This document shows positions 7,160 to 36,389 of a stretch of DNA of 37,004 nucleotides, in pieces (position 1 is the first letter of the stretch; each line of letters starts with the position of its first letter). Origin of the DNA: Candidatus Saccharimonadota bacterium. GTDB taxonomy: Bacteria; Patescibacteriota; Saccharimonadia; Saccharimonadales; UBA4665. Position numbers and translations under genes: made by a program. The notes under the pieces were generated by a model that was not told the origin of the DNA, searched no databases, and worked only from the letters and a program-made list of their open reading frames with translations. The DNA is taken from the NCBI GenBank assembly GCA_020427985.1, contig JAGQNR010000008.1, positions 1-37,004 on the forward strand, written 5' to 3'.

Positions 7160-7921
7160 CTAGCGGGGGCGGGATTTGGCAGTGGCGTGAGCAGCTTGCT
7201 CGATAGTGTCGTCAAGCAGAGCAAGTTCCGCATGACCATATTTGCGCTCTAACGCCAAACGTAGCAGTTCGTCGGCAAACTGCGGGTTTTTGACCAGGAG
7301 CGGTCCGTGGCTGTAGGTACCAAACACATTATTAACCCGGCAGCCCTCGGTGCCGTCCTGGCCATTATTGCCATCGCCCTGTACAACTTTCGCCAGTGCG
7401 GTTGCGGTATCATCAAGCATGGTTAAGCCGCTGTGGTTTTCGTAGCCGACTAGCTCTCCAAATGGAGTATCGTAGACGGTGTTGCCGATCATACGAGTCT
7501 CGCCACCAACTGTCTCTAGCGGTAGTACACCAATGCCCTTAATGAGTGTACCTTCGCTGGTGGTAAAAGCGCGGCCAAACAGCTGGTACATGCCACATAT
7601 CATCAGCATTACCACCCCGTTTTGAGCCATAGTATGTAACTGCTCGGCCTTAGTCAGTAAGTCGTCTTGAATAGTGCTCTGGCCGGCATCTTGACCGCCA
7701 CCGCCAATAATAATGTCAGTTTCACCTGGGATGGAGTCCCCAACACCGACAAGTTTTACCTGGATGGCCACTCCACGCCATGCGGCTCGTCGCTGCAATG
7801 CTAAGCGATTACCCGTGTCGCCGTAAATGTTCATTTCTTTAGGATACAAATGCACGATCGTTAGCGCCTGCTTGGCATTTCTCTGCTCTCTGTTCTCTGT
7901 TCTCTGTTCTCTTGGCTTCAT
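7160..7921 (-). CDS. gatD: Lipid II isoglutaminyl synthase, glutamine amidotransferase subunit GatD
   Basis: GatD hydrolyses glutamine and passes ammonia to MurT, which amidates the D-Glu of lipid II. The 253-residue class I amidotransferase has HLYPKEMNIYGDTGN, the GGGGQDAGQ loop (73-81), nucleophile Cys109 in MICGMYQLFG and His205 in FGTYSHGPLL. The usual GG after Cys is GM. Start 7921 overlaps the murT stop as ATGA, so translation is coupled. The first ~19 residues (REQRTENREQRN) are unusual: they are encoded by tandem 7-bp repeats (7881-7912), and family members normally begin near the LTIVHLYP strand. A change of one repeat unit would shift the frame. Confidence 0.93.
   Translation of the reverse strand: MKPREQRTENREQRNAKQALTIVHLYPKEMNIYGDTGNRLALQRRAAWRGVAIQVKLVGVGDSIPGETDIIIGGGGQDAGQSTIQDDLLTKAEQLHTMAQNGVVMLMICGMYQLFGRAFTTSEGTLIKGIGVLPLETVGGETRMIGNTVYDTPFGELVGYENHSGLTMLDDTATALAKVVQGDGNNGQDGTEGCRVNNVFGTYSHGPLLVKNPQFADELLRLALERKYGHAELALLDDTIEQAAHATAKSRPR
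7881..7912 (+). repeat. Tandem 7-bp repeat at the 5' end of gatD
   Basis: Three perfect CTCTGTT units (7888-7908) follow one with a single change, CTCTGCT (7881-7887); a partial unit, CTCT, follows at 7909-7912. The tract lies within codons 4-14 of gatD. Seven is not a multiple of three, so slipped-strand gain or loss of a unit would shift the frame, as in phase-variable loci. Confidence 0.85.
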
Positions 7922-9198
7922 ACCTCGTCTAGCCCTCCTTGTGCACCCAGATACAGTTCGCGTAGCCTTAGCATTGCTGTATAGGTGCAAAATATGATGC
8001 TGTCGCCACTGTTAGCCCCTGCGGCGGCAGAAAAACTGTTCGCAAAAGCTGCAAGGTCTGGTTCGGTTGCCTCAACGAGCACTTCATCATATTTAAGTCG
8101 GTTGGTCATATCGGCAGCTCGGTCACCACTACAGCGTATATGATAGCCGTTTTGCAGGCTTTCAAAATCAATATCCCAGAGCCATGAGACATCACGACCG
8201 TCTGGATAATCATCGTTTATAGCTATGCCGACTGTCTTGTATGATTTTAGTTCAAGCATCCGTAATGCTTGGGTAAAGCCCCCGGGATTCTTAACGAGCT
8301 GAAGAATGACTGTGTTGCCAGGAGCAAGTTGAATGGTTTCACCGCGTCCAAAAGCTGGTTCGACGGTCAGAATGGCTGCGGCGAGCTTGGCGGTGTCGGG
8401 CTGGGGCACAATTTGCTGTAGAACAGTGAGTGCAGCCGTAAGGTTGAGTGCGTTATGTCCACCAGCTAATTGAAATTTGTAATGATGAGGGGTCACACCA
8501 AGCCGCAGTGATACAGAGTTTTCGTCGTAACTAACAAGCTCGGCATTTGGCTTCCCTGCCAGAATATAAGCAGCCGATTCGGCATGATACAGTTGGTCAT
8601 CGGTTAAAAAGTCGGGCTGCAGGTCTTCGCTATGAGCATACCAAAGCTTATTGACGCCTTCTTTTACTTTAATGCGGCTGACTCGCTCGTCATTAGCATT
8701 TAGCACTACAAATTCTGTCGCACTTAATGCCAGTACTTGCAGCAGCTGCAAGGTAGTGTCGATTTCGCCAAATCTATCCATTTGATCCCGCATAATATTA
8801 AGGACGAGCACCCCGCGTGGCTTAACGGTTCGAGCAAAATGCACCGCATGAGCTTCGTCTTGCTCAAACACAGCGATGTCATACGGCAAACGCGCGCCCC
8901 ATGTGGCCTTATCTATCACCGCACTAATAGTGCCCCGCACAAAGTTGCTGCCAGTTGGATTGGTGAGGACACGAAGTCCCTGAGACTCAAGAAGTGCCGT
9001 AACGAGCTTGGTAGTAGTCGTTTTGCCATTCGTACCCGAAACTACAACCACTCCTTGGGGCAGTTGGGTAAGCATTGCTGCTAAAAACCGTCGGTTGGTC
9101 TTCTCGACCACAAGACCTGGTAGCGCCGAACCAGTTCGGTGTAGCGCTCGCAAACCCCAAAATACCGATTTACCAAGTACAACACTAGGAATATTCAT
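7918..9198 (-). CDS. murT: Lipid II isoglutaminyl synthase, Mur-ligase-like subunit MurT
   Basis: MurT activates the D-isoglutamate carboxylate of lipid II with ATP for amidation by GatD-derived ammonia. The 426-residue protein has the Mur ligase P-loop GTNGKT (55-60), a central domain with FEQDEAHAVHF and NIMRDQMDRFGE, and the C-terminal MurT domain (LVKNPGGFTQAL; YTAMLRLRELY). The Cys4 zinc ribbon usual in Gram-positive MurT central domains is absent: the corresponding stretch (KLWYAHSEDLQPDFLTDD) has no Cys. Start 9198 follows TATACT (9211-9206) by 7 nt. The hexamer lies at the end of tyrS, so murT-gatD has its own promoter. Confidence 0.93.
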   Translation of the reverse strand: MNIPSVVLGKSVFWGLRALHRTGSALPGLVVEKTNRRFLAAMLTQLPQGVVVVSGTNGKTTTTKLVTALLESQGLRVLTNPTGSNFVRGTISAVIDKATWGARLPYDIAVFEQDEAHAVHFARTVKPRGVLVLNIMRDQMDRFGEIDTTLQLLQVLALSATEFVVLNANDERVSRIKVKEGVNKLWYAHSEDLQPDFLTDDQLYHAESAAYILAGKPNAELVSYDENSVSLRLGVTPHHYKFQLAGGHNALNLTAALTVLQQIVPQPDTAKLAAAILTVEPAFGRGETIQLAPGNTVILQLVKNPGGFTQALRMLELKSYKTVGIAINDDYPDGRDVSWLWDIDFESLQNGYHIRCSGDRAADMTNRLKYDEVLVEATEPDLAAFANSFSAAAGANSGDSIIFCTYTAMLRLRELYLGAQGGLDEV

Positions 9199-35966: not shown

Positions 35967-36389
35967 CTATTTCTTGAGGTAGTTTCGGAGGTTCTCGACA
36001 GCTCTTGTTGCTTCAGCGATAGCCTTGCGGAGGTCTTTGTCCTCAACTTCGCCTTCGTGCAGACCAGTTAGTGCTTCACGAGCTTTTTCTTTGGCTACTT
36101 TGCCCTTGGACACCGCCTCATCAAGCGCCTTGCTGGCCTTGCCGCTCAAGTCTTTGATCTTACTCGCAGCTTCTGAGAGTGATGCATTGAGCTCTGTGTG
36201 TAGTTGCTTGAGCTCTTTCTCGGCAGCACCATAGGTTTCGCCAGCCTTGACCTTGAGCTCTTCTCGCGTCTCTTTGCCACTCTTTGGCGCTGTCAGTACG
36301 CCTGCGAGATATCCCGCTACCGCTGTAATCGCTGCACCGATCGCTACTTTACCTGCTACATTTTGCTTAGGAGGTTCTTTACGAAACAT
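35967..36389 (-). CDS. YtxH-family protein
   Basis: The 140-residue protein matches YtxH: a hydrophobic N-terminal span with a Gly-rich helix (AAITAVAGYLAGVLTAPKSGKETREEL), then a long Lys/Glu/Ala amphipathic helix. YtxH is a general-stress envelope-associated protein of uncertain role. Its start is 6 nt after the stop of the preceding membrane protein with a possible AAAGG site, so the two form an operon like ytxG-ytxH of Bacillus. Confidence 0.85.
   Translation of the reverse strand: MFRKEPPKQNVAGKVAIGAAITAVAGYLAGVLTAPKSGKETREELKVKAGETYGAAEKELKQLHTELNASLSEAASKIKDLSGKASKALDEAVSKGKVAKEKAREALTGLHEGEVEDKDLRKAIAEATRAVENLRNYLKK

Follow-up and report, generated by a model that had tools for sequence, protein, structure and literature searches.

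A seven-base repeat array in the first codons of gatD in a Saccharibacteria genome and its relation to dispersed heptamer arrays

In the genome of a Candidatus Saccharimonadota bacterium, the first codons of gatD carry an array of seven-base repeats. In the features tested here, this array matches the class of dispersed heptameric simple sequence repeats (SSRs) and is thus of a known kind, in a lineage (Saccharibacteria) that appears to be new for such repeats. We consider it probable that the gatD array is a member of this class, residing in a linker that tolerates insertions and deletions and having its reading frame kept by purifying selection. Since many unrelated genes of the genus have seven-base repeats next to or within them, a tolerated protein tail is a more likely interpretation than a purpose-built on/off switch. 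The array was found in a stretch of 37,004 nucleotides (the window), which is located on contig C44 of a 978-kb genome (G000); 685 kb of this genome (~70%) was surveyed for arrays.

The array and the murT/gatD junction

On the plus strand, a near-perfect CTCTGCT (7881-7887) is followed by three CTCTGTT units (7888-7894, 7895-7901, and 7902-7908) and a partial CTCT, which ends the array (Table 1). TRF reports period 7, 92% match, and a score of 61 for this region, making it the best-scoring array of the window. The lag-7 score is 23, far beyond chance, given that 60 dinucleotide-shuffled versions of the window reach at most 12 (lags 4-20). The coordinates and the TRF result confirm the three perfect units and one near-perfect unit of the first-pass annotation. 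Of the span it claimed (7881-7921), the plus-strand repeat is real, but position 7921 belongs to the start codon and not to the array, which ends at 7912. The pure tract covers 26 nt (~3.7 perfect units), after which comes the AGAGAGC unit. Elsewhere in the window, at 36172-36216, a 21-base unit is present in 2.1 copies (TCTGAGAGTAGATGCTTGAGC).

Table 1. Positions of the array and of neighboring features in the window
Feature	Position	Strand	Remarks
Heptamer array	7879..7912	-	unit AGAGAAC, 4.9 copies: three perfect, one AGAGAGC, one partial
gatD	7160..7921	-	glutaminase subunit of lipid II isoglutaminyl synthase, 253 aa
GATase_3 domain of GatD	7286..7861	-	residues 21-212, E 2.7e-35
gatD start codon ATG	7919..7921	-	overlaps the murT stop as ATGA
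SD-like AAGGAGG	7934..7940	-	12 nt upstream of the gatD ATG, within the murT 3′ end
murT	7918..9198	-	Mur-ligase-like subunit of the GatD complex; Mur_ligase_M, MurT_C

The assignment of GatD is based on the GATase_3 domain, a conserved Cys and His (Cys109 and His205, invariant in the alignment of relatives), and the neighboring murT. The closest solved relatives are GatD proteins of lipid II isoglutaminyl synthase, and the nearest named relatives belong to Saccharibacteria MAGs. Among NCBIfam models, those for GatD and MurT match best, yet their scores fall under the curated cut-offs. GatD copies resembling those of Saccharibacteria are also encoded at L115, L120, L121, L125, L126, and similar loci, on contigs filed as Ruminococcus, Arthrobacter, Clostridiales, and Coriobacteriales MAGs, which are perhaps mis-binned. 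In two other genomes, the gatD match is in two pieces (G049; L020/L022) or contains one TGA (G035; L010); in both cases, a frameshift, decay, an assembly error, or an upstream non-coding match is possible.

The murT stop codon TGA (7918-7920) shares bases with the gatD start codon. Translation from this ATG gives MKPREQRTENREQRNAKQALTIVHLYPKEMNIYGDTGN, in which the repeat encodes approximately REQRTENREQR, in frame and N-terminal to the GATase_3 domain, as the first-pass annotation had proposed. Pneumococcal GatD has a natural N-terminal stretch of a length similar to that of the array-coded tail.

Heptamer arrays in the genus

Genome-wide, period 7 exceeds its neighbors. The survey identified eight period-7 arrays in the 685 kb of the own genome (G000), compared to zero to two for each other period of 4-13, and the congener G004 has 37 in 393 kb, compared to zero to three. 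The numbers for other congeners are two in 157 kb (G002), one in 200 kb (G003), and zero in 200 kb (G006). Outside the genus, 37 other Saccharibacteria-type loci hold four period-7 arrays in 639 kb, confined to two loci, and 32 actinobacterial loci hold one in 642 kb. The units are diverse (TTAAGAG, AGAGATA, TAACTCC, TTAGTAG, GAGACAT, CCCAATT, and others), and several of them recur within one genome. Of the heptamer arrays in the surveyed part of the own genome, (TTAAGAG)7 at L051:11349-11397 on contig C11 is the longest; it is positioned between divergent ORFs, at a distance of 19 nt from one.

The unit of the gatD array is itself not common to the phylum. Among 380 sampled Patescibacteria genomes, exact (AGAGAAC)3 matches the own genome alone, and within that genome the exact two-unit string is found at the gatD site only; AGAGAAC was therefore rejected as a phylum-wide shared element. 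The unit is also present in 18 scattered viral contigs. A search of plasmids with the translated repeat peptide gave no match, where a low-complexity filter may mask matches.

On the basis of simple longest-ORF gene calls, 30 of the 47 arrays in the genus are intergenic, frequently 10-25 nt from a gene end, and a minority lie within genes. In the own genome, arrays directly precede rplF and gatA (named by sequence resemblance). In G004, in-frame arrays occur within the housekeeping genes tsaD, pepN, and purL, in the last case at an apparent linker position. A VKOR-family protein (L202:1623-1737) likewise has an in-frame array in its N-terminal tail. This VKOR tail and the GatD tail of the same species are built from the same units, AAAGGGC and ACCTACC, with different spacers. 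In the tsaD loop, which was resolved for four species, G004 has a composite array, G002 has one resembling (AACATCC)4, and G000 and G006 have none. Stop codons are absent in the sense direction from 13 of 15 coding units and, on the strand as listed, from 6 of 23 intergenic units; for random heptamers, the stop-free proportion is 69%. The stop-free coding units partly reflect survivorship.

At the gatD site, three of the seven genus species have an array, with the units AGAGAAC (G000), ACCATCC (G001), and AAAGGGC plus ACCTACC (G004), and all three arrays are in frame. The other four species have a short, repeat-free GatD tail. Hence, as in the tsaD loop, related species differ in length and sequence at the same position. 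None of the gatD-site units contains a stop triplet in any sense frame, whereas most intergenic units do. Among 88 murT-gatD junctions, lag-7 arrays are present only in G000, G001, G004, and locus L111, and the only other periods, 6 and 12, are those of two loci rich in GC. A tree of MurT, GatD, and PepN requires that the gatD array was gained or lost at least twice. With the modest support of this tree, an independent origin of the G000 array appears likely rather than proven.

Collectively, these data suggest the following scenario. Heptamer arrays of varied units are dispersed in the genus, chiefly at gene junctions, and would originate by replication slippage or by copying. The ATGA overlap of murT and gatD means that any array at this junction falls within the 5′ codons of gatD, and the present array may have landed there in this way. 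Selection on the frame would then retain only open, in-frame arrays. The product would be a normally working GatD whose N-terminal tail (MKPREQRTENREQRNAKQ) is probably unstructured and indel-tolerant, and any switching through loss or gain of units, which may occur slowly, would be incidental and rare.

Translation, RNA-level roles, and phase variation

It is very improbable that the array is untranslated and that GatD begins downstream of it, although many relatives begin a few residues ahead of the GATase_3 domain and in G001 an ATG follows the array. In the window, neither ATG nor TTG occurs in frame after the array and before the domain, and a downstream start, named by the first-pass annotation as a finding that would speak against a switch, has little support. 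The sole alternative in-frame start is a GTG already within the first conserved stretch (LTIV), and its use would cut away part of the conserved first strand. Moreover, all seven genus species share the (A/G)TGA overlap start and, upstream of it, a purine-rich SD-like stretch, and GGAG-type stretches resembling AAGGAGG precede the gatD start in relatives. The lack of ATG and TTG codons and the genus-wide overlap start together make translation of the array very probable. Alternatively, the array might function in the mRNA, as a regulatory or structural element that governs translational coupling where murT and gatD meet. Paired arrays elsewhere form regular heptad hairpins (L067, z -5.4; L063, z -4.4; L061, z -3.3), and the TAACTGA repeats near start codons in Beggiatoaceae have been proposed as post-transcriptional sites (PMC4679880). 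However, no folding is seen for the gatD arrays (z -0.5 in G000 and +1.6 in G004), a hairpin role was rejected on this basis, and the units are wholly unlike between species, leaving no common binding motif. An RNA-level role is hence improbable, though less so than an untranslated array. Several arrays in the genus are arranged as opposite-strand pairs, and of four intergenic pairs folded, three gave clear hairpins and the fourth z -2.1. In G004, opposite-strand heptamer arrays surround GC-rich hairpin cores at L067:8545-8668, L216:16494-16616, and L074:6323-6443; the starts of these cores are partly alike (GGAA..CTG..CCGC..GCGG), as if they were a composite dispersed element.

The first-pass annotation suggested that the gatD repeat may be phase-variable and that gain or loss of units could switch lipid II amidation. 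In a genuine switch, slippage would shift the frame and turn amidation on or off in a sub-population. As in contingency loci, the array is positioned in the 5′ coding region, its unit length is not divisible by three, and both off frames hit early stops (5 and 12 codons past the array). Gain or loss of a unit would shift the frame, as predicted. Two further species have arrays of different units at the same site, and there is a precedent in E. coli K1 neuO, where a 5′ coding heptanucleotide repeat (AAGACTC) sets the frame by unit number (PMC13001214). The neuO tract, however, is long and measurably variable, with 20 units the commonest number and a range of 3-53, and belongs to a prophage-borne capsule-modifying gene (PMC13001214); a comparison figure for hmw1A is 20-24 units. 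In contrast, the gatD array lacks the long pure tract that is typical of fast slippage, is short and interrupted, and lies in a core cell-wall gene. Arrays of the same class are not concentrated in surface or contingency genes but occur at ribosomal-protein junctions and with gatA, tsaD, pepN, and purL; switching of tsaD, pepN, or genes at ribosomal-protein junctions makes little sense. A further point against a switch is that MurT/GatD has been described as essential in pneumococcus and that, in S. aureus, reduced amidation makes mutants less viable (PMC6085368, PMC6113224). For Saccharibacteria, no statement on gatD essentiality was found in the main text of a Tn-seq study (PMC10633639). The gatD arrays are in frame in all three species, as judged from one genome per species. 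The genome-wide spread of the class, its presence in housekeeping genes, and the short, interrupted array thus speak against a dedicated switch of lipid II amidation, and a genuine phase-variation switch is unlikely. In the part of the literature covered by our search, we found no paper that links Saccharibacteria with phase variation or with heptamer repeats.

Relation to known heptamer repeats and implications

In many bacteria, heptamers are reported to be the most common of the long simple repeats. According to PMC4692102, which cites an SSR survey from 2007, they are over-represented in many species, e.g., as GGGAATC in Xanthomonas and GGGGA(C/T)T in Nostoc, and are mainly intergenic, form inverted pairs, and differ at the same junction between close species. 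The arrays described here are similar in the period-7 excess, the mostly intergenic location near gene ends with a minority within genes, the frequent inverted pairs, and the same-junction variation, and about four units is typical there as well. The differences are that here the units are many and not G-quadruplex-like, the lineage is Saccharibacteria, and several arrays are in frame in housekeeping genes. The Geobacter metallireducens elements likewise consist of ~4-5 heptanucleotide repeats between and within genes, but each element family has a single consensus (PMC2700814), whereas in the present genus the units vary from array to array. Similarly, the Beggiatoaceae TAACTGA repeats are short heptamer arrays closely 5′ of start codons, with one fixed unit (PMC4679880) in contrast to the many units seen here. 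In the Nostoc tRNA-Leu intron, degenerate heptamers in P6b form a hairpin of variable copy number (PMC3488679); these resemble the paired intergenic arrays of the genus and not the single gatD array.

Selection for a variable tail might account for the presence of gatD arrays in three of seven species. We regard it as rather doubtful, though less so than a genuine switch, that an active process in the genus places ever-changing heptamer arrays at fixed tolerant sites, resulting in fast-evolving tails and an occasional slow frame switch. If true, active generation of arrays would reach the starts and loops of core genes, such as the start of gatD. A 7-bp repeat in a coding region is not automatically a phase switch, and caution is warranted in reading it as one. 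The genus offers matched cases, i.e., sister species with different units at one codon position and in-frame arrays in housekeeping genes, which make the origin of the arrays, their turnover, and the selection on their frame measurable.
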